A DNA stretch of 64,000 bases, taken from contig NZ_LIVV01000005.1 of NCBI RefSeq assembly GCF_001905825.1, positions 388,594 through 452,593 of the forward strand, read 5' to 3'. The notes below the pieces were generated by a model. The model did not search any database and was not told the DNA's origin. It saw nothing but the letters and a program-made list of their open reading frames with translations. The translations under genes were made by a program, and so were the position numbers. Origin of the DNA: Streptomyces sp. CB02009. Lineage in GTDB: Bacteria; Actinomycetota; Actinomycetes; Streptomycetales; Streptomycetaceae. Numbering within the stretch: position 1 is the first letter of the stretch; the number at the start of each line of letters is the position of its first letter. Shown here piece after piece: positions 46,234 to 64,000 of the stretch.

Positions 46234-46683
46234 TCAGTCCCGGGCCGTGCGGCGGGGCTCGGGAGCCTCGGCGGACCCCTCCGCCTCCGTGTCGGGCTCC
46301 AGGAACTGGTTCACGACCTTGACGAAGACGCCCATGCGGTCGTCGGGGACGCCCAGCCAGCGGGCGAAGTCCTCCATCGACGGCTGCCAGTCGCTCGGCG
46401 GCAGCAGATCGGCCGCCATCGGGAGCTCCTCCGGGCTCACCCGGCCGGACCGGATGAGCATGTCGCGGACCGATACCCCGAGCAGCGGGGCGATCCTGCG
46501 CATGGTCTCCAGGTCGGGCATGCTCTGCCGCTGCAGCAGGCGCGTCACGGCGGCCCGGTGCACCCCGGCCTCGTCCGCGATCCGGGACTTGCCGCCGCCG
46601 CGCGGGCTGTCGATGTCGTAGCCGCGCTGTCGCATCAGGCCTTCGACCCAGCCTGCGAACTCATCCAGCCCACGAGTGGTCAT
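46234..46683 (-). CDS. XRE-family HTH transcriptional regulator (candidate repressor of the tail module)
   Basis: 149 residues from the ATG at 46683, preceded by GAGGAG. An N-terminal Cro/C1-type helix-turn-helix spans about residues 30-70 (SRIADEAGVHRAAVTRLLQR). A second half (WQPSMEDFARWLGVPDD) may mediate dimerisation, and the end is acidic then basic. It diverges from the WhiB-type operon. An operator-like sequence recurring before its own gene, that operon and the tail operon makes it the best candidate master repressor; this is inference. No peptidase domain for RecA-dependent self-cleavage is present. Confidence 0.85.
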   Translation of the reverse strand: MTTRGLDEFAGWVEGLMRQRGYDIDSPRGGGKSRIADEAGVHRAAVTRLLQRQSMPDLETMRRIAPLLGVSVRDMLIRSGRVSPEELPMAADLLPPSDWQPSMEDFARWLGVPDDRMGVFVKVVNQFLEPDTEAEGSAEAPEPRRTARD

Positions 46684-46834: not shown

Positions 46835-46916
46835 AACTCTGGCTCGCCGCCGCACTCGTCGGCCCCCTGAGCCCCAACGGCCCCACAGGTCCCCTGGGTT
46901 CGGGGTGCCCCGGACC

Positions 46917-47216
46917 GTGGAGAACCTCTTGTTCCAGCCCGACCCCACCCCTTGGCAGGCCGACGCCGCGTGCGCCGACCTCTCCCCGTCCGTCGTCTTC
47001 GCCCGCCGCGCCAAGGAGGCGGCCCCGGCGCTGCGCGCCTGCGCCGGCTGCCCCGTCCGCCGCGAGTGCGAGACGGCCGTGGCCCCCGCCGAGAGCTACT
47101 TCGACGGAGTCTGCGCGGGCCGCCTCTGGCGCAACGGTCGCCCGGCGGACGCGGCCCGCGTGGCGAAGGCCGTCGCCCTCGCCCCGACGCTCACCCGGAG
47201 CGGCCGCCGTGGCTGA
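46917..47216 (+). CDS. WhiB-like iron-sulfur transcription factor
   Basis: 99 residues from GTG at 46917, preceded by GGGGTG (a GTG at 46905 is also in frame). The four cluster-binding cysteines Cys19, Cys42, Cys45 and Cys51 show the Wbl spacing C-x22-C-x2-C-x5-C. The family's turn G[VI]WGG appears only as the divergent GVCAGRLW. The C-terminus is basic. Wbl proteins regulate development and are also carried by actinophages. It overlaps the next gene by 8 bases in a three-gene regulatory operon. Confidence 0.88.
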   Translation: MENLLFQPDPTPWQADAACADLSPSVVFARRAKEAAPALRACAGCPVRRECETAVAPAESYFDGVCAGRLWRNGRPADAARVAKAVALAPTLTRSGRRG

Positions 47217-48009
47217 CCGCACGTCCCGCGCCCCGTCCGTCGAACCCGTGCTGCGCGACATCGCACTCTGGACCGCCTCCCTCGTGCGCCAGTTCCCCGA
47301 GCTCGCCGAAGAGCTCGCGCCCGGCCGCCGCGGCCCCGCCGGGAGCGCCCCGGCCCCCTCCCCCGCGGCCCGTGACGAGCAGATCCGCGAGGAGCGCCGC
47401 GAGGCGCTGCTCCTCCAGCAGCGGCACGGCCTCGCCGTCCCCGGCCACGGCGCCGCCCCCATCCGGCTGCACGTCTCCGACGCGATCCGCGACATCACCG
47501 ACGGGGTGGTGGAGCTGGAGGAGGCCGTGTGCGCCCGGCTCGCCCTGCCCCGGCCGCCCCGCGCCGGGGTGGTCGACCGGCTCCGCCGGGTCGTGGGACT
47601 CCTCGACGCGATCGCCGCAGAGCCGGACCTCGCCCGGCACGTACGGGACGAGATCCGCCGGATGGCCCGGCGCTGCGCCCGGACGCTCGGCGACTCGGAG
47701 ACGGTCGTACGGGTGTCGGGCCGCTGCCCCTGGTGCGACTCGGTGTCGCTGCGGGCCTTCCCCGACCGGCGCGCGGTGCTCTGCGTGAACCCGGCCTGCG
47801 TGTGCGTGGACGAGGCGTGCGGCTGCCAGGACGACCCCGCCTACCGGCACCTGTGGCCGGAGCCCGAGTGGGCGGAGCTCGCGGCCGCCGCCGGCTCCCG
47901 TACCGACGAGATCCGGGCGGCGATGGACACGGCCGCCGCACCGACCACCGCACTGGCCCCCGCACCGGCCGACGCACCGACCGACGACTCCGAGGAGACC
48001 TCGTGCTGA
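47209..48009 (+). CDS. Zinc-ribbon protein of unknown function
   Basis: 266 residues from a GTG start. The N-terminal two thirds are helical. A cysteine cluster follows (CPWCDSVSLR at about 174-177, then CVNPACVC and CGCQ), consistent with a zinc ribbon. The tail is low-complexity Ala/Pro/Thr/Asp. Coupled to the WhiB-like gene before it and to the HTH gene after it. Similar proteins sit near WhiB and HTH genes in Streptomyces phages and prophages; function unknown. Confidence 0.75.
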   Translation: MADRTSRAPSVEPVLRDIALWTASLVRQFPELAEELAPGRRGPAGSAPAPSPAARDEQIREERREALLLQQRHGLAVPGHGAAPIRLHVSDAIRDITDGVVELEEAVCARLALPRPPRAGVVDRLRRVVGLLDAIAAEPDLARHVRDEIRRMARRCARTLGDSETVVRVSGRCPWCDSVSLRAFPDRRAVLCVNPACVCVDEACGCQDDPAYRHLWPEPEWAELAAAAGSRTDEIRAAMDTAAAPTTALAPAPADAPTDDSEETSC

Positions 48010-48206
48010 GCTCGCCCGCCCTGCCGGCCCTGATCCCGGGACCGCTCGCCGCCGAGGAGGCCGGGGTCGCCCCCGCGACCATCCGCAAGTGGGTCCAGCT
48101 CGGCCATCTGCGGGCCGCGGGGAAGGCGGGCCGGGCCCAGCTCTTCCGCCTGGAGGACGTGTTCGCCGCCGAGCGCGTGGCCCGCCGCCGTCCCCGTACC
48201 GCCTGA
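48003..48206 (+). CDS. MerR/excisionase-type HTH protein
   Basis: 67 residues. A winged-helix core with EEAGVAPATIRKWVQLGHL and a wing containing LFRLEDVFAAE resembles the MerR/AlpA/excisionase family. The GTG at 48003 overlaps the previous stop. No integrase gene is visible, so a transcriptional role is more likely than excision. Confidence 0.8.
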   Translation: MLSSPALPALIPGPLAAEEAGVAPATIRKWVQLGHLRAAGKAGRAQLFRLEDVFAAERVARRRPRTA

Positions 48207-48312: not shown

Positions 48313-49140
48313 TCAGGCCGCCAGGAAGCGGTGGAGCGAGTCCGTGAAGGCGGTGACGAACCGGTCGCGGGTCTCCTCGGGCACGCGGTCCAGGGAGAGA
48401 TAGGGGTTGAGGTCCTCCAGTTCGACGAGGAGCAGCTCACCGCCGGGGGCGCGGCAGGCGTCCACGCGCTGGATGCCGTGGTCGAGGGTGTTCCAGTCGA
48501 CGAAGCGGCGGGCGAAGTCGAGGTCGTCCCCGGTGGGCTCGTACGGCTCCAGGACCCAGCGGCGTGCGGGGTCGGGGGCGTGCAGGGCGTACTGGAAGAG
48601 GTCGTCGACGAAGTAGAAGGAGACCTCGTACCGGAAGTCGACGCGCGGCTGGACGAGGAGGCCGTCGTAGCGGAGGCCCGCGAGCTCCTCGTGGGCGAGG
48701 AAGCGCAGGCCTATCGAGTCGGCGCCGGCCTTGGGCTTGACCGCGTACGCGTCGGCGGCGGGCAGCCGGTGGAGGTCCTCGGGCCGGTCGACGGTGGGGA
48801 TGACCGGGTATCCGGCGGTGGTCAGGTCGAGCAGGTACTGCTTGCCGGCCATGTCGCCGCGGCCGTGGAGCGGGTTGTAGACGCGGGTGCCCTCGGCCAG
48901 GGCGCGCTCGCGGAAGGTGTCGTACTCCTTCTGGTAGCCGATGACCGGGCCGCTGTTGCGGACGACGACGGCGTCGAAGCCGTCCATGAGGGCGGCGGCG
49001 TCGAGCGGGTGGCAGAGCGCCAGGTCGAAGGAGTCGCGCAGCCGGGCGGTGAGGTGGATGTCCTCGTCGCAGTAGCGCCGTCCGCGGGCCGGGTAGGCGA
49101 GGTCGGTGACGTACAGAAGGCGGGGGCGGGCGGCGGGCAC
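48313..49140 (-). CDS. ATP-grasp-like ligase, glutathione-synthetase type
   Basis: 275 residues, GTG start with GAGGAG upstream. An N-terminal pre-ATP-grasp domain contains VVRNSGPVIGYQ. The ATP-grasp core has AVKPKAGADSIG (nucleotide-binding Lys) and the metal-binding ELEDLNPYLSL. It most resembles RimK/GshB-type amide ligases. The substrate is unknown. It lies between the regulatory operon and the tail operon, on the opposite strand, and may be a chromosomal passenger. Confidence 0.75.
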   Translation of the reverse strand: MPAARPRLLYVTDLAYPARGRRYCDEDIHLTARLRDSFDLALCHPLDAAALMDGFDAVVVRNSGPVIGYQKEYDTFRERALAEGTRVYNPLHGRGDMAGKQYLLDLTTAGYPVIPTVDRPEDLHRLPAADAYAVKPKAGADSIGLRFLAHEELAGLRYDGLLVQPRVDFRYEVSFYFVDDLFQYALHAPDPARRWVLEPYEPTGDDLDFARRFVDWNTLDHGIQRVDACRAPGGELLLVELEDLNPYLSLDRVPEETRDRFVTAFTDSLHRFLAA

Positions 49141-49433: not shown

Positions 49434-49841
49434 ATGACCACTCCCCCGAGTGCGTTCCCGGACGTCGAGAAGCTGGTCGTCGACGTCCTCAAGGCCGACC
49501 CGGCACTGGCCGGCGTCACGATCGCCGCACAGGCGCCGGCCGGCTTCGACGGCACGCAGAACGCCGTCCTGGTGAACCGCCGCGGCGGCGCCTGGATCGG
49601 CGACCTGCACGTCGACAAGCCGCTGGTCGAGTTCGAGGTGTACGCGCCGACCAAGAGCGCGGCCCACGTCCTCGCCAACGCCGCCCGCCGGGCCCTGCTC
49701 GCCACCCTCGGCAAGCAGATCGGCGCCCACTTCGTCAGCGACGTCGAGGAGCAGGACGGGCCGCGCTGGATGCCCGACTACCTCTACCGGGGCGCCAACC
49801 GCTACCTCTGCGTCATCCAGCTCTCGCTGAACGTCTTCTAG
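49434..49841 (+). CDS. Phage tail terminator-like protein
   Basis: 135 residues, ATG with GAGGAG upstream. The fold pattern (helix, strands IGDLHVDKPLVEFEVY, long helix KSAAHVLANAARRALL, C-terminal strands) and size fit siphophage tail terminators that cap the tail tube where a head would attach. The assignment rests on position directly before the major tail gene more than on sequence. It is the first gene of the structural operon. Confidence 0.65.
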   Translation: MTTPPSAFPDVEKLVVDVLKADPALAGVTIAAQAPAGFDGTQNAVLVNRRGGAWIGDLHVDKPLVEFEVYAPTKSAAHVLANAARRALLATLGKQIGAHFVSDVEEQDGPRWMPDYLYRGANRYLCVIQLSLNVF

Positions 49842-49967: not shown

Positions 49968-50579
49968 ATGGCAGGAAACAACTCGGCCGAGATCCGCGTC
50001 GCCGGCACCGGCAAGCTCTACGTGGCCGACGCCGGTACCTCCGCCCCGGCCACGTTCGGCACCGACTCCGCCGCCGACTGGACCGGCGCGGGCTGGAAGG
50101 ACCTCGGCTTCACCTCCGGCGACGGCGTCACCTTCTCGAAGAAGGACAAGCTGGAGGCCATCGACTCGTGGCAGTCGGTCTCCCCGGTCCACTACATCTA
50201 CTCGAGCCGTGACCTCTCGCTGAAGTTCTCGCTGCTCCAGTTCAACGAGGACACCCTGCCCTTCTTCATGGGCGGGGACGCCGTCAAGGCGGAGCCGACG
50301 CCGGCCGTCGACACCTACCGCTACGAGATCGCCGAGCGTCCGTTCGCCGACGTGCGCGCCCTCGGCCTGGAGTTCACCGACGTCAAGGCCGGTGGCACGA
50401 CCGCGGTGAAGTACCGCTTCATCATCCCGCGCGGCCAGGTCACGGCCACCGACGACATCAAGCTGGCCCGCAAGGCGGCGTCGCAGCTGGGCGTCACCTT
50501 CTCCGCCATGTCGAAGGGCGACGGCAAGCCGCTGGCGACCTTCCTCATGAAGGACAGCCAGTACGGCGCGGCGGTCTGA
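49968..50579 (+). CDS. Major tail protein (tail tube subunit)
   Basis: 203 residues, ATG preceded by AAGGAGAA. The N-terminus has GTGKLYVADAGTSAPATF and the core GWKDLGFTSGDGVTFSKK, which recur in actinophage major tail proteins that form the tube. It precedes the frameshifted chaperone gene, as in siphophages. Flanking hairpins may protect or isolate its message, in keeping with the need for many copies per particle. Confidence 0.85.
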   Translation: MAGNNSAEIRVAGTGKLYVADAGTSAPATFGTDSAADWTGAGWKDLGFTSGDGVTFSKKDKLEAIDSWQSVSPVHYIYSSRDLSLKFSLLQFNEDTLPFFMGGDAVKAEPTPAVDTYRYEIAERPFADVRALGLEFTDVKAGGTTAVKYRFIIPRGQVTATDDIKLARKAASQLGVTFSAMSKGDGKPLATFLMKDSQYGAAV

Positions 50580-50676: not shown

Positions 50677-50967
50677 ATGGCCCGTTTCGACGTCAACGCC
50701 GCCCGCGCACAGCGACAGGAGGCCCATGGCCGCGCCTGGTCCTTCGAGCTGGACGGCGAGAGCTACACCCTTCCGACCGAACTGAGCCGGGCGACGGCCA
50801 AGGCGCTGCGCACGCTCGACGACAACGACGTGGACGGCCTGCTCGCGCTCCTGATGGGTGAGGAGCAGTTCGCCCGCTTCGAGCAGCACGACATCACGAT
50901 GCAGGACGTCGCCGCGATCCTGGAGGCCTACGGCAAGGAGACCGGGCTCGGCCTGGGGGAAGACTGA
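50677..50967 (+). CDS. Tail assembly chaperone, short form (gpG-like)
   Basis: 96 residues. A helical protein (AKALRTLDDNDVDGLLALLM, VAAILEAYGKETGLG) of the size and position of lambda gpG. Chaperones of this type hold the tape measure soluble during tail assembly and are not part of the mature particle. The last four codons carry the slippery run that allows the longer product. Confidence 0.82.
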   Translation: MARFDVNAARAQRQEAHGRAWSFELDGESYTLPTELSRATAKALRTLDDNDVDGLLALLMGEEQFARFEQHDITMQDVAAILEAYGKETGLGLGED

Positions 50968-51407
50968 GCCTCGTCGAGTTCGTCGACGAACACGCCGAGG
51001 CCCTTGAGGCGGACCTGCTCCGCCACTACTCCGCCGACCTGCTCGACTGGCACCGGGGCGAACTGTCCAGCCGTCGCCTGATGGTCATGGTCAAGCACCT
51101 GCCGCGGGACAGCGCCCTCCAGCGCGAGCTCCACGGCGAGGCCGCCGAGTGGTCGGTCACCGACCACCTGCTGGCGGCCACGGTGGACCATCTGGCCGTC
51201 TCCAACTGGATGTTCATGTGCGTCAACAGCGGCGAGGACGGCGACCAGCCCGATCCGCCGACGCCCGTCCCCCGTCCGGGCGGCCCCGACCAGGACGAGG
51301 ACCACGACGGAGCCGACGGCACGGGCACCGACGAACACGGGCGGAGCGCGCGTGCCGAGGAGAGCGCGGCAGTGTCTCCCCACGCCCTCGCCCGGTTCTT
51401 CGGGTGA
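50677..51407 (+). CDS. Tail assembly chaperone, -1 frameshift product (gpGT-like)
   Basis: Joined reading frame 50677-50961 plus 50961-51407, 243 residues. The second frame (from RLSLVEFVDE) has no credible start codon or ribosome-binding site near its beginning, starts before the first stop, and runs to an acidic Asp/Pro-rich tail ending HALARFFG. Phage G/T genes between the major tail and tape measure genes use the same -1 arrangement. It should bind the tape measure through its extension. Confidence 0.78.
50955..50989 (+). other. Programmed -1 frameshift signal
   Basis: Slippery run GGGGGAA at 50955-50961 (codons GGG GAA), then after 9 bases a stem-loop: TCGTCGA (50971-50977), loop GTTCG, TCGACGA (50983-50989). 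The zero-frame stop TGA is at 50965-50967. Spacing fits known G/GT signals. Confidence 0.72.
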
Positions 51408-52815: not shown

Positions 52816-53829
52816 ATGACGAAAACACCCGATGATCTCTCCACCGAGATCACCGCCCTCAAGACCTACCTCACCAAGTCGGACGCCAGCCCGCTGATCA
52901 CGGAGCAATACCTCCAGAAGCAGCTCCCGGAGCAGTGGACCGAACGCTTCAAGTCGATGTACGACGAGCTCACCAAGGCGAAGAAGTCCGAGTTCCTCGA
53001 AGCCATGGGTCTCGACGGATTCGGCGCCGCCCTCGAGAAGTTCTACGAGAACCGGGAGAACCCGGACAACAAGTGGGGCTACTACCTCGCCTCGGCCGTC
53101 GTGGGCCTGATGCTCCCCGCCATCGGCCTCATCCTCGCCGCCTGGGTCATCAAGATCCAGCGCGACATCCAGCAGCTGCCGGCCCGGCTGATGGGCAACC
53201 CCAACGGCCGGGTCCTCGCCACCTCCGACACCGGCCGCGGCATCCGCCTCCAGGACCGGACCGCCGTCGAGGACCGGGAGGGGGCCGCCGCCGGCGGACT
53301 GGCCTCGCTCCCGCAGAACGCGAACTTCGACGCCCTGCGCGCCCAGCTGGAGGGGATCAACCCTCCCCTGAAGGAGTTCAACACCCAGGCCGGCCCGTTC
53401 ACGACGAAGTTCAAGGACCTGCCGAAGGCCTCCGCGATGGTCAAGGCGGCAGACGCCGTCGGAAGGATCAACACGGCCGTCAAGGAAGCCGACCCCGCCA
53501 AGATCGAGACGGTCGCCAAGGCGATCGACGCGCTCGTCAAGGCCGTGAAGGACTACGACCCCAAGAAGGTCCCGGACCCTAAGAAGCTCGAAAAGCTCAA
53601 CTCGGCCATGGTCGACGCCAACCCCACGCAGATCCAGGCGATGGCCAAGGCGACCGGGAAGCTGGCCAGCGCGCAGCGGCACTTCGATCCGAAGAAGCTC
53701 CCGAAGGCCCGCGGTCTGGAGTCGTCCGCCAGGGCGGCCGAACGGCTCGCCCGCGCCGGCGGCGACGTGGCCTCCGCGTTCAACACCCTCAAGGTCAAGG
53801 CCCAGGAGGCCGCTCAGGCCATGGCCTGA
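52816..53829 (+). CDS. Tape-measure-associated membrane/coiled-coil protein
   Basis: 337 residues, ATG with GGAAGCGGAG upstream. N-terminal helical region, then one hydrophobic segment (about 95-118, SAVVGLMLPAIGLILAAWVI), then long Ala/Lys/Asp-rich helices with loosely repeated units (KAADAVGRINTAVKEADPAK). The composition and place before two tape-measure-like genes suggest part of a split tape measure or its membrane-active portion. No enzyme motif seen. Confidence 0.6.
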   Translation: MTKTPDDLSTEITALKTYLTKSDASPLITEQYLQKQLPEQWTERFKSMYDELTKAKKSEFLEAMGLDGFGAALEKFYENRENPDNKWGYYLASAVVGLMLPAIGLILAAWVIKIQRDIQQLPARLMGNPNGRVLATSDTGRGIRLQDRTAVEDREGAAAGGLASLPQNANFDALRAQLEGINPPLKEFNTQAGPFTTKFKDLPKASAMVKAADAVGRINTAVKEADPAKIETVAKAIDALVKAVKDYDPKKVPDPKKLEKLNSAMVDANPTQIQAMAKATGKLASAQRHFDPKKLPKARGLESSARAAERLARAGGDVASAFNTLKVKAQEAAQAMA

Positions 53830-53858
53830 GCCCCACCCACCCCGAAAGGAGGTAACTC

Positions 53859-55058
53859 ATGGCTTTCACCAGCTCCCTCAAGAAGTCGTCCGACTCCCTG
53901 CGCAACCTCAAGACCCAGGCCACCGGCGCCGCCACCGCCGTCAAGAAGGTCGGCGACGCGGGCAACTCGGCGAACGGTCAGCTCAAGAACCTCAAGACCG
54001 GCGCCCAGGGCTCCAGCACCCAGCTCAAGAACCTCAAGACCGCCTCGGACCAGGCCGAGAAGTCGATGACCAAGGCCGGCCGGACCGCCGAGACGGCCGG
54101 CACCAAGCTCGGCAAGTACGAGTCCGGCGCCGGCAAGGCCGCCAAGGGCCAGGACAAGCTCAACAAGTCCATGAAGGGCAATCTCCTCGCCCGCCTGATC
54201 GAACTCTTCATGCCTCTCATCGAGAAGATCGTCGCCATGGCGATGCAGTCGAAGACGATGCAGAAGGTCCTGAAGAAGGCCTTCGACGCCGTGAAGACCG
54301 TGATCAGCGCGGTCATGAAGGCCATCGGCCCGATCATGAAGAAGGCCGGGCAGCTGATCAAGACGGTCTGGAACGGCATCAAGACGGCGATCTCCACCGT
54401 CGTCAAGGCCGTCGCCACCGTCATCAAGACCTACGTGACGATCTGGAAGACGGTCATCACCACGGTCATGAAGGCGATCAAGACGGTTGTCGGCAGCGTC
54501 TGGAACGGCATCAAGGCCGTCATCACCCCGGTGGTGAACTGGATCAAGAGCGCCATCCCGAACGCCTTCAGCGCCGTCAAGGACAAGATGTCCTCCATCT
54601 GGAACGGCCTCAAGGACATCGCGTCCCGCGCCTTCGAGGGCATCAAGAGCGGCGTCTCCGGCCCGATCAACGCCGTCATCGGCCTGATCAACCGGATGAT
54701 CAGGGCCGTCAACGGCGTCAAGGTCAGCGTCCCCGGCTGGGTCCCGGTCGTCGGCGGCAAGACCTTCGGCGTCAACATCCCCACCATCCCCATGCTCGCC
54801 ACCGGCGGTGTCGTCATGCCCCGCAGCGGCGGTGTGCCGGCGATCCTCGCCGAGGCCGGCGAGGCCGAGGCCGTCCTGCCGCTGTCCAAGCTGGACCGGC
54901 TGCTCGCCCTCACCGCCCGGCGCGCCCGCATGAGCGCGCAGCTCGGGGGCGGCAACGGCGGCGCCGGGCTGCACATCGAGCACTACCACGCGGCCCGCAC
55001 CAGTGACCCGCAGTCCACGGCGGACGCGCTGATGTACCTGGCGAAGGCGCGCGGATGA
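53859..55058 (+). CDS. Tape measure-like protein 1
   Basis: 399 residues with a perfect ribosome-binding site (AAAGGAGG). N-terminal Lys/Ala/Gly/Ser-rich helices, a hydrophobic middle (LLARLIELFMPLIEKIVAMA) and repeated amphipathic SVWNGIKAVI-type segments, typical of phage tape measures. The end has the conserved tape-measure motif MLATGGVVMPRSGG...AEAGEAEAVLPLSKL. It is short for a single tape measure. Its stop overlaps the start of the next gene (ATGA). Confidence 0.78.
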   Translation: MAFTSSLKKSSDSLRNLKTQATGAATAVKKVGDAGNSANGQLKNLKTGAQGSSTQLKNLKTASDQAEKSMTKAGRTAETAGTKLGKYESGAGKAAKGQDKLNKSMKGNLLARLIELFMPLIEKIVAMAMQSKTMQKVLKKAFDAVKTVISAVMKAIGPIMKKAGQLIKTVWNGIKTAISTVVKAVATVIKTYVTIWKTVITTVMKAIKTVVGSVWNGIKAVITPVVNWIKSAIPNAFSAVKDKMSSIWNGLKDIASRAFEGIKSGVSGPINAVIGLINRMIRAVNGVKVSVPGWVPVVGGKTFGVNIPTIPMLATGGVVMPRSGGVPAILAEAGEAEAVLPLSKLDRLLALTARRARMSAQLGGGNGGAGLHIEHYHAARTSDPQSTADALMYLAKARG

Positions 55059-56305
55059 GTGCCGTCGCGGCCTTCCCGAACCCGTTCGCCGGCGGTGTCC
55101 TGCCGGCGATGAGCGCTCTCAGGAGCGGTCTCGGTCAGGCGGGCGACGGACTGAAGCGGCTCAGGGACGACGCCCTGCGCACGGCCGGCGGCATGGACCG
55201 GTTCGCCGCCGCCCTGCGCACCGCCGGCACCTCCGTACGCGGCCTCGGCACCGGTTCGTCCGGCGCCGCGGACTCCGTCCGGCGCATCCAGCGCTCCAAG
55301 GCCGCCACCGGCGTGGGGAAGATCGGCACCGCGGCGGGCAGGGCGAGAACGGCCACCGGGAGGCTCGGCCCCGCGGTCGGCGGCGTCCTCGCCCTCCTCC
55401 TCCCGCTGCTGCCCGTCGCCGATGTCGTCACCCGGCTGATGGACACCTACGGCACCGTCATGACCGTCGCCTCCGTCGCCATGACCGGCGTCAACCTCGC
55501 CATGCGGGCCAACCCGATCGGCTTCCTCGCCGGCATCCTCGTACCGGTCGCCGCCTGGCTCATCGAGTACGCGATGCAGAGCGAGACCGGCCAGAAGATC
55601 ATGCGGCAGGTGTTCCAGGCCGCGCTGAAGGGCTTCCAGTCGGTCTGGACGTTCCTGCAGCCGGTCCTCAAGCTCATCGGGCAGGCCGTCGGAACGTACG
55701 CCAAGGGGTACCTGGCCCTGTTCACGGGCGCCCTGAAGATCGTCGGCTCCGGCATCAGCGGCATCAGCAGGGTCCGCACCACCGTCACCTCGGCCTCGAA
55801 CGCCCTGCGCGGCATCGCCTCGCGCACGATGGGCGGGATCAAGAACGCCGTCAAGCCGGTGCTCTCCTTCGTCACCGACAAGATCCCGGGCTTCTTCCGG
55901 CACGCGAAGGACGCCGTGGCCAGGGCGCTGCGGGGCATGGGCGAGCTGATCAAGGGCGCGCTGAGCGCCGTGCTCGGCGTCGTCAAGGGCCCGATCAACG
56001 GCCTGATCGCCTTCGCCAACTGGATCATCGACGGGCTCAACAAGCTGAGCGTGAACATCCTCGGCAAGAAGTTCGGCGTCGACATCGACAAGATCCCGAT
56101 GCTCGCCGAGGGCGGTGTCGTCTTCCCCGGCGCCGACAGCGCGCCGCGCATCGACCCGCTCACCGTGCTGGAGAACCGGCGCGTCCCGGCCCTCACCGAG
56201 ACTCCCCGGCAGCCCCACCGCATCGCGGAGTTCCACGAGGAGCCCGGCGCCGGCCCGCGGTCGACCGCCGAGGACCTGCTCTTCCTCGCCGGCGCCCACG
56301 GCTGA
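55055..56305 (+). CDS. Tape measure-like protein 2 (paralogue)
   Basis: 416 residues, translationally coupled to the previous gene. Helical N-terminus, a hydrophobic core with MRANPIGFLAGILVPVAAWL (the NPIG motif common in tape measures), then helices similar to those of protein 1, and the matching end IDKIPMLAEGGVVFPG with RSTAEDLLFLAGAHG (compare QSTADALMYLAKARG). A diverged tandem duplicate; the acidic-glycine part of the terminal motif is replaced. Confidence 0.75.
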   Translation: MSAVAAFPNPFAGGVLPAMSALRSGLGQAGDGLKRLRDDALRTAGGMDRFAAALRTAGTSVRGLGTGSSGAADSVRRIQRSKAATGVGKIGTAAGRARTATGRLGPAVGGVLALLLPLLPVADVVTRLMDTYGTVMTVASVAMTGVNLAMRANPIGFLAGILVPVAAWLIEYAMQSETGQKIMRQVFQAALKGFQSVWTFLQPVLKLIGQAVGTYAKGYLALFTGALKIVGSGISGISRVRTTVTSASNALRGIASRTMGGIKNAVKPVLSFVTDKIPGFFRHAKDAVARALRGMGELIKGALSAVLGVVKGPINGLIAFANWIIDGLNKLSVNILGKKFGVDIDKIPMLAEGGVVFPGADSAPRIDPLTVLENRRVPALTETPRQPHRIAEFHEEPGAGPRSTAEDLLFLAGAHG

Positions 56306-56360: not shown

Positions 56361-57293
56361 ATGGCCGAGACCACAACCACATACGCCGGAAGCAGCCTCA
56401 CCGCCGACCACGCGCCCGGCTCACTGATCACCCAGGACGGGCAGATCCAGTGGGCCGGGCTTCTCATCGGCCCCGGCACCCCCTTCAACGTCGACCGGTC
56501 CGGACTCCAGGGCTGGGAGGACCTGCCCGAGTACGACTCCTCCGACGCCGACCGGCCCACCTCGCACGGCGCCTGGCCCGGCTCCCGCTACGCCAAGCCG
56601 CGCAAGATCAGCGGCACGATCGTGCTGATGCCGGAGTGGAGCCAGACCGGCGAGGCCGTCCGCGCACTGCGCCAGGCGCTCGCCCTGCTCGACGAGGAGC
56701 GCTGGCTCACCGTCCGGCTGCACGGCGAACTCCTCGCCGTACGCGCCCGGATCGCCCAGCGCGTGGTCCCCGCGGACCAGGGCTTCGCCACCCAGGGCAG
56801 CTCGAAGATGTCGATCCAGTGGCTGGCCGCCGACCCGCGCCGCTACGCCGTCAACGAGCAGTCCTCCTCCACCACCCCGCCGCAGCCGGAGACCGGACTG
56901 AACTGGCTGCCGAACGGTCTCACCTGGCCGCTCAACTGGGGCCAGGCCAAGTCCACCGGTGACGCCGTCGCCGAGAACACCGGCTCCGCCGCCACCCACC
57001 CGGTGATCGTCTTCCGCGGCCCCTGCTCGATGCCGACCGTCACCGAGCGGGTCAGCACGCGCCGGCTGCGGTACGCGATCGACCTGGCCGCCGGTGACGA
57101 GCTCGTCGTCGACACCGCCAACGGCACGGTGATGCTCAACAACACGGCCTCCCGCCGCCACACCGCGATGGCCGACTCCAGCCCGGAGGAGCTGTTCCTC
57201 CTCGAACCGGGCCGCACGGAGCTGTCGTTCCGGCCCGACGCCTCGACGCCGGAGGCCCTGATGACGATCCGCTGGCGCAGCGCCGAGTGGTGA
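56361..57293 (+). CDS. Distal tail protein (Dit-like)
   Basis: 310 residues. The N-terminal domain has the pattern of siphophage distal tail proteins: GPGTPFNVDRSGLQGWEDLP, then KISGTIVLMPEWSQTGEAVR and LGxW-type strands. The second half carries a beta-sandwich-like region (PVIVFRGPCSMPTVTERVST). Dit forms the hub ring linking the tube to fibres. Located between the tape measures and the fibres, as expected. Confidence 0.83.
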   Translation: MAETTTTYAGSSLTADHAPGSLITQDGQIQWAGLLIGPGTPFNVDRSGLQGWEDLPEYDSSDADRPTSHGAWPGSRYAKPRKISGTIVLMPEWSQTGEAVRALRQALALLDEERWLTVRLHGELLAVRARIAQRVVPADQGFATQGSSKMSIQWLAADPRRYAVNEQSSSTTPPQPETGLNWLPNGLTWPLNWGQAKSTGDAVAENTGSAATHPVIVFRGPCSMPTVTERVSTRRLRYAIDLAAGDELVVDTANGTVMLNNTASRRHTAMADSSPEELFLLEPGRTELSFRPDASTPEALMTIRWRSAEW

Positions 57294-57347: not shown

Positions 57348-58541
57348 ATGACCGTACGGGCCGCCTGGCTGCATCCGACCGGCCAGACCCGCGAGGACAC
57401 CCGGATCGCGCTGTCCGCGCTCCTCACCCCGAACGGGCAGAGCGCCGCGGAGACCCCGCTGCGCTCGCGCCCCGGCATCGTGCCCGGCGGCCTGGTGCTG
57501 ACCGGCACGTCGGCGATGGAGTGCTCCGTCGGCACCGGCCGGGCCGTCGTCCAGGGCAGCGACACCGCCCAGGGCGCGTACATGATCGCGGTGACCTCCC
57601 CCGAGACCCTGACCATCGCGGACGGCGATCCGCAGTACGGCCGGATCGACCTGATCGAACTGGCCGTCCTCGACGACGCGTACGACCGCAGCGGCGCCAC
57701 CGGGGCCGTGATCCGGCTGGTCAAGGGCACCCCCGCGGCCACCCCGGCCGTTCCCCTCTCGGGCCCCGGCAGCGCCTTCCCGCTCTACACCGTCTCGGTG
57801 CCGGCCGGCACTTCGGCCGGCACCGGCGGCGTCAAGTGGACCACCGCGGGCGTCGTCACCACCCTGCACTACCCGATGACCGCGCTCGGCGGCATCATCC
57901 CGACCAGCGGCTTCAAGGGCGCCTACGTCGGCCAGTACCGGGACGTCGCCGGCCTGCTCCAGCGCTGGGACGGCACCGCCTGGGTCTCGTACGCGAAGCC
58001 GATCGGCGGCATCGCCCCGCACGGGACGATGACGACCGGCGCGTACACCGGCCAGTACCGCGACAACGCCGGTGTCCTGCAGCGCTGGGACGGTGCGGCC
58101 TGGCAGTACGCGGAGGGCAGGGCGGCGGTCCTGTTCAGCGTCTCGCAGACGTCGATGCAGAGCGTGCCGGCCGGCACCTGGACGCCGATCACCCTGCAGA
58201 ACGTCGACATCGACGACTTCACCGGCTGGAACGGCACCGACAGCTTCGTCGTACCGCGCACCGGCTGGTGGCGGGTCTCCGGCCACGTCGCCTGGAACGG
58301 CGACTCCGCCACCGGCGTGCGCGGCGCCCGCATCCACCTCGGCGGCGTCGGCGTACCCCGGATGACCTGGCTGGGCCCGGCGTCCACCGGCGCCGTCACC
58401 GTCGGCGGCCAGGGCCTGGTCAAGCTCACCGCGGGCAACGTCCTGCAGCTCGCCGGCTACCACAACCACACGGCCGCCGTCCGGACCCTCGGCGGCTCGG
58501 GCTACTACAGCAACCTGTCCGCCCAGTGGATCAGGTCCTGA
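57348..58541 (+). CDS. Tail fibre / receptor-binding protein 1
   Basis: 397 residues. The ~180-residue N-terminal domain (LHPTGQTREDTRIALSALL, IADGDPQYGRIDLIELAV) is shared with the next two genes. Two repeats GQYRDxAGxLQRWDGxAW follow. The C-terminal ~130 residues are unique and look like a C1q/TNF-type jelly roll (PAGTWTPITLQNVDIDDFTG, GWWRVSGHVAWNG), a common receptor-binding tip. Confidence 0.8.
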   Translation: MTVRAAWLHPTGQTREDTRIALSALLTPNGQSAAETPLRSRPGIVPGGLVLTGTSAMECSVGTGRAVVQGSDTAQGAYMIAVTSPETLTIADGDPQYGRIDLIELAVLDDAYDRSGATGAVIRLVKGTPAATPAVPLSGPGSAFPLYTVSVPAGTSAGTGGVKWTTAGVVTTLHYPMTALGGIIPTSGFKGAYVGQYRDVAGLLQRWDGTAWVSYAKPIGGIAPHGTMTTGAYTGQYRDNAGVLQRWDGAAWQYAEGRAAVLFSVSQTSMQSVPAGTWTPITLQNVDIDDFTGWNGTDSFVVPRTGWWRVSGHVAWNGDSATGVRGARIHLGGVGVPRMTWLGPASTGAVTVGGQGLVKLTAGNVLQLAGYHNHTAAVRTLGGSGYYSNLSAQWIRS

Positions 58542-58581
58542 CCCCGCCCCCCACCCCGCACCTCCCCGATTGGAGAACCCC

Positions 58582-59802
58582 GTGAACCTGCGCAGCAGCT
58601 GGGTCGCCGAGACCGGCCAGACCCGCGAGGACACCCGCCTGAACCAGGTCGGCGCGACCACCATGATCAACCCCGTCCAGGTCCGCTCCGGCGTCCTGCC
58701 GGGCTCCTACGACGGCAAGTACCGGCTGGCCGGCTTCTGGATGGACAAGGCCTCGGCCATGACGGCGATCGTCTCCGAGGGCCGGGCCGTCATCCAGGGC
58801 GACATCTCCCAGGGCGTCTACCCGGTGGCCCTGCCCGCATCCGCGCAGGTCACCTTCGCCGCGGGCGACGCCCAGTACGGCCGGATCGACCTGGTCGTCC
58901 TGAGGATCTACGACAACCTCTACGACGGAAGCACCCGCAACGAGGCGAAGGTCGAGATCGTCCAGGGGGTGCCGGGCCAGGCCCCCAAGGCGCCCGCGGC
59001 CCCGCCGCGCAGCCTGCCGCTGTACGAGGTGACCGTCCCGGCCGGCGCCAGCGGAGGCAACGGCGGCATCCCGTGGAACACCTCCCTGAAGGACCTGCGC
59101 ACGCCGGTCGTCGCGCTCGGCGGCATCCTCCCGGTCGAGGGCCCGGTCCTGCCGGGCGCCCACCCCGGCCAGTACCAGGACACCGCCAACAACCAGCTGC
59201 AGCGCTGGGACGGCGGCCAGTGGGTCGCCTACCCGGAGGCCCTCGGCGGTATCGTCCCGACCTCCGTCAACGCCACGACCGCGGGCAGCTACACGGGCCA
59301 GTACCGGGCCACCGCGGCCGGTCCGATCCAGCGCTGGAGCGGCGCGGCGTGGGCCCCGGCCTACCCGGGGCCGTACTTCAACGACTCGCTGGACGGCGGG
59401 TACACCCTCTCGACGACCTTCGTGAACACCCTGGTCGACCGGGCGGAGAACCCGCTGTCGCTGAGCTTCGTCGCCCCGGAGAGCCGGCAGGCGATCCTCT
59501 CCTTCGGTTCGAAGACCGAGCTGTCCCTGAACTCGGGCACCACCGGCGTCGCCAGCTCCGCGCTGATGTGCGTCCGCATCACCCAGGGCGCCACCGTCTT
59601 CCGCGAGGTGGACGACGAACTCTCCGCCTTCGCCTCCAAGTCGTCCAGTGCCACCGACGCCGTGTCCGTCTCGACGACGCAGCGCCTGTCCGGCCTGACG
59701 CCCGGCGCGACCTACACGGTCACCGCGTACTACCGGAGCACCAACGCCAACGTGCGGGCCTGGTTCGACAACTCGTTCCTCCAGGTCACCCCGCAGTACT
59801 GA
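58582..59802 (+). CDS. Tail fibre / receptor-binding protein 2
   Basis: 406 residues from GTG at 58582 preceded by TTGGAGAA. The shared N-domain begins NLRSSWVAETGQTREDTRLN and includes GATTMINPVQVRSGVLPG. Two GQY...LQRW repeats follow. The C-terminal domain is unrelated to those of the other fibres, with LSLSFVAPESRQAILSFGSK and an end like a fibronectin-type strand set (PGATYTVTAYYRSTNANVRA). Confidence 0.8.
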   Translation: MNLRSSWVAETGQTREDTRLNQVGATTMINPVQVRSGVLPGSYDGKYRLAGFWMDKASAMTAIVSEGRAVIQGDISQGVYPVALPASAQVTFAAGDAQYGRIDLVVLRIYDNLYDGSTRNEAKVEIVQGVPGQAPKAPAAPPRSLPLYEVTVPAGASGGNGGIPWNTSLKDLRTPVVALGGILPVEGPVLPGAHPGQYQDTANNQLQRWDGGQWVAYPEALGGIVPTSVNATTAGSYTGQYRATAAGPIQRWSGAAWAPAYPGPYFNDSLDGGYTLSTTFVNTLVDRAENPLSLSFVAPESRQAILSFGSKTELSLNSGTTGVASSALMCVRITQGATVFREVDDELSAFASKSSSATDAVSVSTTQRLSGLTPGATYTVTAYYRSTNANVRAWFDNSFLQVTPQY

Positions 59803-59848
59803 GTCCGCACGGCCGCCACCCGACCGCCCCTACCTCCAGGAGAACCGC

Positions 59849-60991
59849 ATGCCCGTTCGCTCCGGATGGCTGATGCCCACCGGGCAGACCCGCCAGAACA
59901 CCCGCATCACCAACATCGGCGCCACCACCCCCGTCAACCCGCTCGGCGTCCGGTCCGGCGTCCTGCCCGGCACGTACGACGGCAAGTTCCGGGTCGGCGG
60001 CCTGTGGATGAGCTCCTCCGGCCCGATGACGGCCACCGTCTACCACGGCAAGGCCGTCATCCAGGGCGGCACCACCGACGGCGCCTACCCGGTCGCCCTC
60101 GACGAGGACATCACCCTCACCTTCGCCGACGGCGACCCGCTCAACGACCGCGTCGACCTCGTCGTGGTCCGCGTCTACGACAACGACGTGGACGCCCTCG
60201 GCAAGCACGAGGCAGCCGTCGAGATCGTGAAGGGCACCCCGGCCGCCACCCCGGCCGCCCCGGCGGCCCCCGCCCGCTCCCTGATCCTGTTCACGGTGAA
60301 GGTCAAGAAGGGCGCCTCCGCCGGCACCGGCGGCATCGACTGGGCGGGCGGCGCCACCACCGACCTGCGCACCACGACCGTCTCCGCCGGCGGCATCCTG
60401 CCCGTCTACAACAACGCAGGCGTGGCCGGCGGCTACCCGGGCCAGTACCAGGACAACGACAACGCCCACTTCCTCCAGCGCTGGGACGGCACCGCCTGGG
60501 TCGCCTACCCCAAGGAGATCGGCGGCATCGCGCCCAGCGGCACGATCACCACCGGCAGCTACAACGGCCAGTACCGCGACTACAACGGCGGCCAGCTCCA
60601 GCGCTGGAACGGCAGCGCCTGGACGGCCTACCAGCCGCCCGTCGAGAACGAGACCACCACCACCGGCGCCACGGCCCTGGCCAACTGGTCGGTCGTCTCG
60701 TTCAGCGGCCGCAGGACCAAGAGCGGGCTGTGCACCGTCACGGTCACCGTCACCCGCACCGGCGCCCAGGTCAACGTCGAGAGCGCCGGCAACCTGCCCG
60801 ACGAGCCGCTCTGCACCCTGCCGGCCGGCTGGCGCCCGTCCATGGACTTCGAGGCCTCGGCCTCCGACGGCTTCGGCGACGGCGGCGCCAACATCTACAC
60901 CAACGGCCAGGTCAACCTGCGGACCTGGTCCTCCAACGGCGCTCTCGTCCCCGGACGGAACATCCGCGTCTCCGCCACCTACGTCCTGTAA
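59849..60991 (+). CDS. Tail fibre / receptor-binding protein 3
   Basis: 380 residues. N-domain MPVRSGWLMPTGQTRQNTRI with GATTPVNPLGVRSGVLPGTY is closest to fibre 2. The GGYPGQYQDNDNAHFLQRWD and GSYNGQYRDYNGGQLQRWNG repeats are clear. The third kind of C-terminal domain begins after ENETTTTGATA and has a Cys pair (SGLCTVTVTV and EPLCTLPAGW). It is followed 14 bases later by the hub gene. Confidence 0.8.
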   Translation: MPVRSGWLMPTGQTRQNTRITNIGATTPVNPLGVRSGVLPGTYDGKFRVGGLWMSSSGPMTATVYHGKAVIQGGTTDGAYPVALDEDITLTFADGDPLNDRVDLVVVRVYDNDVDALGKHEAAVEIVKGTPAATPAAPAAPARSLILFTVKVKKGASAGTGGIDWAGGATTDLRTTTVSAGGILPVYNNAGVAGGYPGQYQDNDNAHFLQRWDGTAWVAYPKEIGGIAPSGTITTGSYNGQYRDYNGGQLQRWNGSAWTAYQPPVENETTTTGATALANWSVVSFSGRRTKSGLCTVTVTVTRTGAQVNVESAGNLPDEPLCTLPAGWRPSMDFEASASDGFGDGGANIYTNGQVNLRTWSSNGALVPGRNIRVSATYVL

Positions 60992-61005: not shown

Positions 61006-62136
61006 ATGGCCATCGAAACGCCCTACCGGGCGATCTTCTGCGACCTGCTCACCGACCAGACGCTGGACATCCTGCCGCTGCGGGACGTCTCGTTCGACGA
61101 CTACATCGGCAAGGCGGGCTCGCTCTCCGGCACCGTCCCCATCCCCGACAAGGCCATCGCCGACCGGGTCAAGAAGGTGCGGGAGGGCCGCACCGCGGTC
61201 TACCTGGAGCGCGGCGGCGACCTGTGGTGGGGCGGCATCGTCTGGACCAGCACCCTGCAGTCCAGCGGCCGCGGGGTGCTGACCCTCGGCGTCCAGGCCG
61301 CCACCTTCGACTCGTACGCCGGGCGCCGCCGCATCCGTACCGACATCACGTACGACACCCCGACCGACCAGCTGGAGATCGCGCGCCGGCTGTGGCGCGA
61401 GCTCGACGTCCAGACCTACCCCGACGCCCCCGCGGGCGAGGAACCCCGCCGCCTCGGGATCACCTTCGGGAACGAGATCCCCAAGTTCCAGAAGACGGCC
61501 TCGTGGCGCAAGGGCGACGAGACCGTCTACCTGGAGGCGCTCGACCAGCTCGCCGCGACCGAGGACGGCTTCGAGCACCAGATCCTGGTCTACCGCGACC
61601 CGGCCACCGGGCAGCGGATCCGGCAGCTCCGGATCGGCGAACCCAAGATCGTCACCGGCGCGACCGACCTGGTCTTCGACCGGCCCGGCGTCATCCTGTC
61701 GTACTCCTTCCCGTACGACGCGACCCGCGGCGGCACCACCGCCGTGGCCCGCGGCGCCTCCACCAACTCCAACGCCGCCGCCGAGTCCCGGCCCCTCTTC
61801 TCCGGCACGCAGTACGCCAGCGACCTGCTCGTGGACGGCTGGCCGCTGATCGACCTGTCCTCGGACCACAACGAGATCAGCGACCCGCTCGCGCTCGACT
61901 CGGTGGCCACCACCGAGCTCGCGCAGGCGCGCGGCGCCGTGGTGATCCCCTCGATCAGCATCCACCTGGGCGGCATCGTCCCGCCGGCCCTCCTCGGCCG
62001 CGTCGCCCGCATCCGCATCACCGACGAGTGGTACTCCCAGGGGCTCGACGCCCGCTACCGCATCATCGGCGTCAAGATCACCCCGCCGGAACGCGGCCGG
62101 CCCGACACCGCCGAGCTCTACCTTGAGGAGGCCTGA
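61006..62136 (+). CDS. Tail hub protein (ReqiPepy6 Gp37-like)
   Basis: 376 residues. FCDLLTDQTLDILPLRDVSF, GSLSGTVPIPDKAIADRVKK and YLERGGDLWWGGIVWT form the pattern of the Gp37-like hub family of Gram-positive siphophages (tail-tip protein with baseplate-hub fold). Ends CDARYRI-type strands and PPERGRPDTAELYLEEA. No peptidase domain is attached. Stop overlaps the next start (TGATG). Confidence 0.8.
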   Translation: MAIETPYRAIFCDLLTDQTLDILPLRDVSFDDYIGKAGSLSGTVPIPDKAIADRVKKVREGRTAVYLERGGDLWWGGIVWTSTLQSSGRGVLTLGVQAATFDSYAGRRRIRTDITYDTPTDQLEIARRLWRELDVQTYPDAPAGEEPRRLGITFGNEIPKFQKTASWRKGDETVYLEALDQLAATEDGFEHQILVYRDPATGQRIRQLRIGEPKIVTGATDLVFDRPGVILSYSFPYDATRGGTTAVARGASTNSNAAAESRPLFSGTQYASDLLVDGWPLIDLSSDHNEISDPLALDSVATTELAQARGAVVIPSISIHLGGIVPPALLGRVARIRITDEWYSQGLDARYRIIGVKITPPERGRPDTAELYLEEA

Positions 62137-62705
62137 TGCCCCAGCTGCCCGAGGACATCATCGACCGGCTCAACCAGATGGAACGCCGCCTCAAGGCCCT
62201 GTCGACCGCGGTGAACACCCGCCCCCCGGTCAACGAGTTCCGTCCCACCCCGTCCGAGAGCGTCACCATCACCCGGCCGCTGTTCCGGATCTTCGACGGC
62301 TACAACCACGAGATCTTCGCGGACGACATCCTGACCGGCGGCCTCGCCCGGCCCTGGCTGCAACTGATGCCGCCGCTGGCCACCGACCCGGCCAAGTGGC
62401 CCTCCACCACCGCCGCCGCCTTCACCACCATCGCCCGCTCCTCCAACCCCATCTGGCAGCCGAAGCTGCGGCTCGCCATCAACACGGCGGCGTCCGGCGG
62501 CGCCACCGGCCAGGTGCGGGTCCTGGTCGACAACGTCCCGTTCGGACCCTCGGTCACCGCGGGCACCACCTACGACTACATCGGCCTGCTGCCCGGCGAC
62601 ATGAAGACCCGGTTCGGCCAGACCATGAACATCGAGATCCAGGCCCAGGCCACCGGCGGCACGGTCTACGCCCAGCCCGTCCTCATCCACGGCGCCCAGA
62701 CCTGA
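62136..62705 (+). CDS. Tail-tip accessory protein with N-terminal coiled coil
   Basis: 189 residues. A short coiled coil (IIDRLNQMERRLKALSTAVN) is followed by a beta-rich domain with IWQPKLRLAINTAASGGATG and AGTTYDYIGLLPGDMKTRFG. Such architecture suits trimerisation and receptor contact. Translationally coupled to the hub gene. The family was not recognised. Confidence 0.7.
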   Translation: MPQLPEDIIDRLNQMERRLKALSTAVNTRPPVNEFRPTPSESVTITRPLFRIFDGYNHEIFADDILTGGLARPWLQLMPPLATDPAKWPSTTAAAFTTIARSSNPIWQPKLRLAINTAASGGATGQVRVLVDNVPFGPSVTAGTTYDYIGLLPGDMKTRFGQTMNIEIQAQATGGTVYAQPVLIHGAQT

Positions 62706-63254: not shown

Positions 63255-64000
63255 ATGGCCACTCCCCTCCCCGCGGACCGGCTCCTCGCCGCACTCCGCG
63301 CCGAAGGCGTCACCGTCGTCGAACACCCCGGCTGGCGCTCCCACAACCGCAACCACGCCGGCGCCTGGGGCCCGGTCACCGGCGTGATGATCCACCACAC
63401 CGTCAGCTCCGGCACCGCCTCCTCCGTCGAGATGTGCTTCAACGGCTACGAGGGCCTGCCGGGACCGCTCTGCCACGGCGTCATCGCCAAGGACGGCACC
63501 GTCCACCTCGTCGGCGACGGACGCGCCAACCACGCCGGCGGCGGCGACCCGTCCGTCCTCCAGGCCGTGATCACCGAGACCTACGGGGACCGCCCGCCGG
63601 TCCCCCGCGCCCACCAGGGCAGCCCCGGAGCCGTCGACGGCAACGCCCGCTTCTACGGCTTCGAGTGCGTCAACCTCGGCAACGGCACCGACCCCTGGCC
63701 GGCCGCCCAGCTCGACGCCATCGAACGGGTCTCCGCCGCCCTCTGCCGGGCCCACGGCTGGGGCGCCAAGTCCGTCATCGGCCACCTGGAATGGTCCGAC
63801 TGGAAGAGCGACCCCAAGGGCTTCGGCATGCCGACCCTCCGGCAGCGCGTCCAGACCCGGCTCACCAAGGCGCCCGCCAAGCCCGCCCCCGGCAGCGGAA
63901 AGCCCGCCGCCCCCCGCCTCCAGCCGTTCCCGGGCACCTCGTTCTTCCGCAAGGAGACGAGCTCCCCGGTCATCACGGCCATGGGCCGCCGACTCGTCGC
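63255..64000 (+). CDS. N-acetylmuramoyl-L-alanine amidase (endolysin), 3' end cut by window
   Basis: 248 residues visible from the ATG, which has GGAGGA upstream. Amidase_2 fold: zinc ligands likely His47 (MIHHTV), His177 (GHLEWSDW) and Asp186 in WKSDP, where many amidases have Cys; Lys184 may be catalytic. After a Pro/Ala linker (residues ~208-225) a second domain begins, LQPFPGTSFFRKETSSPVIT, consistent with a peptidoglycan-binding module. No signal peptide, so release would need a holin, which may be beyond the edge. Confidence 0.88.
   Translation, partial: MATPLPADRLLAALRAEGVTVVEHPGWRSHNRNHAGAWGPVTGVMIHHTVSSGTASSVEMCFNGYEGLPGPLCHGVIAKDGTVHLVGDGRANHAGGGDPSVLQAVITETYGDRPPVPRAHQGSPGAVDGNARFYGFECVNLGNGTDPWPAAQLDAIERVSAALCRAHGWGAKSVIGHLEWSDWKSDPKGFGMPTLRQRVQTRLTKAPAKPAPGSGKPAAPRLQPFPGTSFFRKETSSPVITAMGRRLV

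Follow-up and report, generated by a model that had tools for sequence, protein, structure and literature searches.

The stretch of DNA analysed here, called the window, comprises 64,000 nucleotides from the 9.2-Mb, Streptomyces-type genome of Streptomyces sp. CB02009. It carries three tandem phage-fibre genes with intact open reading frames (ORFs), which sit within a tail-only, non-contractile gene cluster. A first-pass annotation, made from the letters of the window, had described them as paralogues with a common N-terminal domain, common repeats and unrelated tips, and their positions and paralogy are borne out:

57348-58541, plus strand: fibre 1 (slot A); shared N-domain, repeats, tip at about residues 255-397 (C1q/BclA-like, weak match); Shine-Dalgarno sequence aaagaggtgaacc
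58582-59802, plus strand: fibre 2 (slot B); shared N-domain, repeats, tip at about residues 259-406 (predicted TNF/C1q-like lectin fold)
59849-60991, plus strand: fibre 3 (slot C); shared N-domain, repeats, tip at about residues 262-380 (predicted siphophage receptor-binding head fold)

The start of fibre 2 is taken as GTG at 58582 instead of the listed TTG at 58570, 12 bases inside, because the Shine-Dalgarno sequence ttggagaacccc directly precedes 58582 and this start aligns with those of fibres 1 and 3. The N-domains within the window are 46% identical between fibres 1 and 2, 46% between fibres 1 and 3 and 55% between fibres 2 and 3. Through this part all three match the family phrog_3398 with E-values of 1e-58 to 1e-65, and the sharing is therefore far beyond chance; the label 'head and packaging' that PHROGs gives to this family is a database label and no evidence of a head. 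The GQYRD..LQRW repeats also recur in all three, with two LQRW-type repeats per fibre seen in the DNA, in agreement with the annotation. Each fibre gene has its own Shine-Dalgarno sequence and the gaps between the genes are short. No terminator was found between the fibre genes, nor any internal promoter match, and they form one apparent operon.

When forced into global alignments, the tips reach 22-26% identity, no more than background, and profile-profile comparison of the tip families (A-B, A-C and B-C) gave probabilities of at most 0.3%, with no detectable sequence or profile similarity. The fold assignments rest on predicted structures, because searches of PDB sequences with the three fibre profiles gave only matches of E 0.03 or above. 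AlphaFold2 (AF2) models of fibres 2 and 3, built from 39 and 31 sequences, respectively, and then compared structurally by VIA-align, have pLDDT mostly above 90 in the tips and are confident at about residues 51-175 of the N-domain. Tip 2 is predicted to be a TNF/C1q-like jelly roll, and its closest lectins are PLTL (Z 12.8, 2.4 Å, 123 residues) and BC2L-C (Z 12.2). Tip 3 is modelled as a siphophage receptor-binding head (Listeria phage PSA gp15, Z 11.1; bIL170, Z 10.0; TP901-1 and p2, about 9.5), a predicted barrel that differs from the C1q/TNF jelly roll. The predicted N-domain resembles the N-domains of receptor-binding proteins (RBPs) or spikes of phages p2, 1358 and phi812, as well as that of an HFTV1 protein, with Z of 8-11 for fibre 3 against phi812, 1358 and HFTV1; in the model of fibre 3, both the shoulder N-domain and the head-domain folds of the p2/TP901-1 type are matched. 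The tip folds, as predicted, are receptor-binding or lectin folds. In the family of tip 1, 11 of 26 members reach E 0.01 or lower on the BclA_C/C1q profile (best 7e-6), and tip 1 may share the C1q/TNF superfold with tip 2. The earlier claim of unrelated tips thus stands for sequence and may fail for the fold of tips 1 and 2; the C1q-like jelly roll that it included is seen in the AF2 model of tip 2, the corresponding match of tip 1 being weak. A cysteine pair, proposed as the defining mark of the third tip, is not one, since members of that family carry 0, 1, 2 or 3 cysteines.

According to gene calls over the window and 25 kb beyond it, the cluster extends from 46.2 to 64.7 kb, with rpsL on one side and rpoC on the other, both of them essential genes. 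Its other genes are as follows:

46234-46683, minus strand: helix-turn-helix repressor at the left edge of the cluster (phrog_3949 transcriptional repressor, E 6e-11; HTH_3)
46905-47216, plus strand: WhiB-like regulator (Pfam Whib, E 7e-8; phrog_472)
48003-48206, plus strand: MerR-like regulator (phrog_2474, E 6e-13)
49434-49841, plus strand: tail terminator (phrog_123, E 6.5e-20)
49968-50579, plus strand: major tail (tube) protein (phrog_117, E 3e-36)
50677-51407, plus strand: tail assembly chaperone in two ORFs, 50677-50967 and 51081-51407 (phrog_10551, E 2e-28; phrog_3656 positions 186-286, E 7e-16)
52816-53829, plus strand: ORF preceding the tape-measure genes and perhaps itself a piece of the tape measure (apparently fused with the next gene in the related locus L127, 678 aa); no family match in PHROG and Pfam scans
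53859-56305, plus strand: two tape-measure-like ORFs, 53859-55058 and 55055-56305 (phrog_1535, E 9e-27; phrog_3981, E 3e-21)
56361-57293, plus strand: distal tail protein, Dit (phrog_5577, E 3e-83; phrog_33 Dit, E 7e-15)
61006-62136, plus strand: Tal-like minor tail protein (phrog_1885, E 7e-57)
62136-62705, plus strand: tail-tip accessory protein (phrog_9849, E 6e-29)
63255-64000, plus strand: amidase endolysin, the gene extending past the window to 64166 (phrog_880, E 2e-75; Amidase_2, E 1e-21)

The siphophage tail module comprises terminator, tube, chaperone, tape measure, Dit and tail-tip proteins. Lysis genes for release accompany it: the amidase is followed by small ORFs, one of which matches phrog_4316, a family of unassigned function, and then by rpoC, and these ORFs are putatively holin-like. 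No capsid, portal, terminase or integrase gene occurs among the genes between rpsL and rpoC, all of which were called and most of which were family-scanned, and no family match to a contractile sheath was found among the scanned cluster genes. Three oddities of this gene set may be recorded. The second chaperone ORF matches the C-terminal half of fused chaperones, the pattern expected of a programmed frameshift. Three ORFs (52816-56305) seem to share the tape measure between them; the two tape-measure-like ones are alike in size, and related prophages have a single gene of about 800 aa. A 275-aa protein encoded on the minus strand inside the cluster (48313-49140), without Pfam or PHROG match, is retained across much of the lineage with slot set A-B-C.

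A fibre match was obtained in 59 of 296 sampled genomes of the genus, and the tail-only cluster, as judged by gene content and order, in 31 of those 59, the window's included, adjoining rpoC or rpsL where the flanks reach. A named scan added more loci, nearly all named relatives being Streptomyces, and removal of duplicates left 68 distinct clusters including the window (W, the window; L numbers, loci of relatives). The chromosomal locus is conserved across species, rpoC or rpsL being in the fetched stretch of 59 of the other 67 clusters; the amidase is present in 64 of the 67. Four tip families were distinguished, and their order along the cluster is constant, A - D1 - B - (C or D2), with one to four fibres per cluster and usually three: among the other 67 clusters, 42 have three fibre ORFs and six have four, a few of these being fragments. 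The slot sets of these 67 are A-B-C (26), B alone (9), D-B-D (6), D-B-C (5), B-D (4), A-D-B-D (3) and A-D-B-C (2), the remainder being rare or broken, and tip diversity between strains is large within the fixed slots. The ground on which the first-pass annotation would have been refuted, tips of one fold lacking sequence diversity across strains, therefore does not apply. Prophages proper, with a single long tape measure, have one fibre, mostly with other tips. In a tree of N-domains from 194 fibres, grouping is largely by slot (20 label changes versus 109 in shuffles), and all 36 slot-A fibres fall in one clade with support of 100. Such grouping across species marks the slots as old paralogues and not recent copies, and an origin of the triplet by recent local duplication was rejected on this ground.

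The survey also turned up deviating loci. Fibre genes are broken or shortened in L124, L118, L114, L066 and L082, several genes of L082 being split, possibly through sequencing error. The single-fibre clusters L060-L068 have an extra gene of about 480 aa, possibly a different fibre, between a g77-like gene and the amidase. In genome G012 (L059, L157), the cluster is a relic in two pieces about 50 kb apart with parts gone. A second, distantly related tail-only mini-cluster lies beside a dnaE-sized gene (about 1140 aa) in other Streptomyces (L153, L154, L155 and L156), in the order terminator, tube, chaperone, tape measure, Dit, two tandem fibres and Tal-like protein, with no amidase seen. Finally, Yinghuangia soli (L138) alternates two Dit-like and two fibre-like genes as Dit, fibre, Dit, fibre.

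At every distance among the 28 A-B-C clusters compared, mean similarity is lower for tips than for N-domains. Against one relative, with Dit 98% and the N-domain of fibre 2 94% identical, the tip of fibre 2 is just 46% identical, and the DNA similarity breaks sharply at the tip. Compared with L050, the DNA of the window is mostly 92-99% identical along Dit, fibre 1 and the N-domain of fibre 2, 54-69% over 59301-59800 and 97-99% in fibre 3. Synonymous divergence (dS) between these two loci is about 0.53 in the tip of fibre 2; the N-domain of the same fibre has 0.15 and that of fibre 3 has 0.06. An origin of the tip-2 difference by mutation alone was rejected, since dS too jumps at the tip boundary, which points to replacement of the tip by a diverged allele. 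Tip 2 of L051 is 85% identical to that of L098, with N-domains at 78%, versus 48% to the tip of the window, with an N-domain at 94%; the greatest difference between L149 and the window is at tip 1, and the slots vary in many combinations among the clusters. One lineage has both C and D tips in slot 4, and the N-domains that carry them are intermixed (75-81% alike, the tips about 30%), with about six changes over 23 rows, an estimate from a tree of modest support. We read these patterns as exchange of single tips between lineages, seemingly independently and slot by slot. Purifying selection is found on Dit, Tal, the tape measure and the fibre N-domains. As a separate observation, the tube protein (49968-50579) is 82-84% identical to those of L050 and L051, many neighbouring genes being at about 95-99%, and 94-98% identical to those of the more distant L042, L052 and L053; it appears to be another exchanged segment.

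Relatives of the tips were sought in a collection of 50,697 phage records. Of these records, 49 contain tip C and 16 contain tip D, all of them from Streptomyces phages, and tips A and B have no match at E 1e-3. Because tips C and D occur only in Streptomyces phages within this collection, related Streptomyces are the likely targets.

From gene content, slot order, the shared N-domain, the tips and their folds, tip replacement and the lack of a head, the locus probably encodes a headless, non-contractile tail resembling an F-type tailocin, with three fibres bearing different receptor-binding tips; we give this somewhat better than an even chance. Such a flexible tail would be maintained by part of the genus Streptomyces at one constant place in the chromosome, and the common N-terminal 'shoulder' domain would anchor the three fibres at the tail tip, in the Dit/Tal region. 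With three different tips, a batch of particles, and probably each particle, would recognise more than one receptor on related actinomycetes. The amidase and the holin-like genes would lyse some producer cells to release the particles, and the tips would be swapped separately by recombination between strains, with flanking homology provided by the conserved N-domain/repeat region and the next gene. That several specificities are displayed at the same time, which the first-pass annotation had offered as one of two interpretations, is the best reading, although assembly, co-display, the receptors and killing are inferred; indirect support comes from the fixed slot set over dozens of species, the separate Shine-Dalgarno sequences, the absence of a terminator, purifying selection and independent tip exchange. 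A more specific proposal, in our view slightly short of an even chance, is that this is a fixed-site, widespread non-contractile tailocin of Streptomyces carrying up to four different tips per particle in dedicated slots, each slot with its own tip exchange.

Several points weigh against a tailocin-like tail with three displayed tips. First, particle formation and the killing of relatives are deduced from genes. Second, single-fibre clusters and broken fibre genes (L066, L114, L118 and L124) indicate that not every slot is essential. Third, confidence in the AF2 models is low for residues 1-50 and in the neighbourhood of the repeats, and the BclA_C/C1q match of tip 1 in the window protein (E 0.0011) is below the Pfam cut-off. 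Fourth, the ratio dN/dS of the tips, 0.2-1.2, mixes recombination with selection. Finally, competition of the three paralogues for a single attachment site might produce mixed populations in place of multi-tip particles.

This last point leads to the alternative that survives best, though we consider it unlikely: the fibres would be on separate particles, or made under different conditions, and a mixture of particles with one specificity each would be released. The shared N-domain does suggest one attachment site, for which homotrimers of the paralogues could compete. Speaking against such separation are the apparent single operon, in which neither a terminator nor an internal promoter match was found, and the slot-specific N-domains, which have long been kept distinct, as expected if they occupy different places. 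Less probable still is a domesticated tail with a non-killing role, for example in developmental lysis or phage exclusion, whose tips would bind the producer's own wall. WhiB and MerR regulators lie within the cluster, and contractile injection systems of Streptomyces are reported to act in the producer's own cell death (PMC10020575; PMC10066040); however, rapid slot-wise tip replacement is hard to square with a self-directed function. We regard a functionless prophage remnant as very improbable. The cluster does lack head, replication and integration genes, and some relatives have broken fibre genes or, in G012, a scattered relic, but gene order and site are identical in dozens of species, the ORFs are intact, tips appear to be exchanged still, and Dit, Tal, the tape measure and the fibre N-domains are under purifying selection.

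The second interpretation in the first-pass annotation, a cassette that switches the expressed tip inside a strain through DNA rearrangement, has hardly any probability left and was rejected after checks of repeats and gene content: tandem paralogues with direct repeats could recombine, but the gene list and family scans of the cluster show no site-specific invertase or recombinase beside the fibre genes, the only inverted pairs at the fibres are short and imperfect (20-33 nt, mostly in coding repeats), no second, silent tip copy exists in the genome, and three expressed-looking genes keep a constant slot order across species. Target switching is seen instead between lineages, through replacement of tips.

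F-type tailocins are known from few bacteria, as F-pyocin (Pseudomonas), monocin (Listeria) and rhizoviticin (Allorhizobium) (PMC10811719). The headless, three-fibre tail proposed here would share with them a siphophage-like tail module without a head, regulators, lysis genes and a chromosomal location. It differs in its occurrence in Streptomyces, in its rpsL-rpoC site and in its paralogous fibres, usually three and at most four, which keep to fixed slots. Neither an F-type tailocin of Streptomyces nor a fixed multi-slot F-type system there was found in the literature searched, preprints and most subscription papers being outside its scope. Among contractile tailocins, both multiple fibres and the exchange of fibres have been described (PMC12090994; PMC13195805). 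R-tailocins of P. chlororaphis and Kosakonia (PMC12090994) and carotovoricin (PMC13195805) resemble the present locus in having more than one fibre protein or fibre-locus exchange between species, whereas here the tail is non-contractile and what is exchanged seems to be the individual tip, slot by slot. In carotovoricin the fibre region is moreover invertible and accompanied by an invertase (PMC13195805), and neither feature is present here. In Streptomyces siphophages such as SV1, Raleigh and Darolandstone, the fibre N-domain is homologous (about 40-46% in the matching part), and some of these phages have the tip C family, but they are full phages with one matching fibre place per phage record against three here. 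The RBPs of lactococcal and Listeria phages (p2, TP901-1, bIL170, 1358 and PSA) share the predicted folds of the N-domain and tip C, with no detectable sequence relation in PDB searches. Contractile injection systems from the same genus are likewise derived from phage tails (PMC10020575; PMC10066040) and are contractile, whereas no sheath gene is found here.

As part of the four-tip proposal, and just as tentatively, a multi-specific 'combination warhead' of this kind would be one undescribed before for F-type tailocins or for actinomycetes. Should the interpretation hold, roughly one in ten of the Streptomyces species sampled would possess a protein weapon with several simultaneous target specificities. 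With this set of tips, 'one fibre, one target' can be tested directly against 'several fibres, several targets', and slot-wise tip swapping would be a natural test of the evolution of specificity in a genus known mainly for small-molecule antibiotics.

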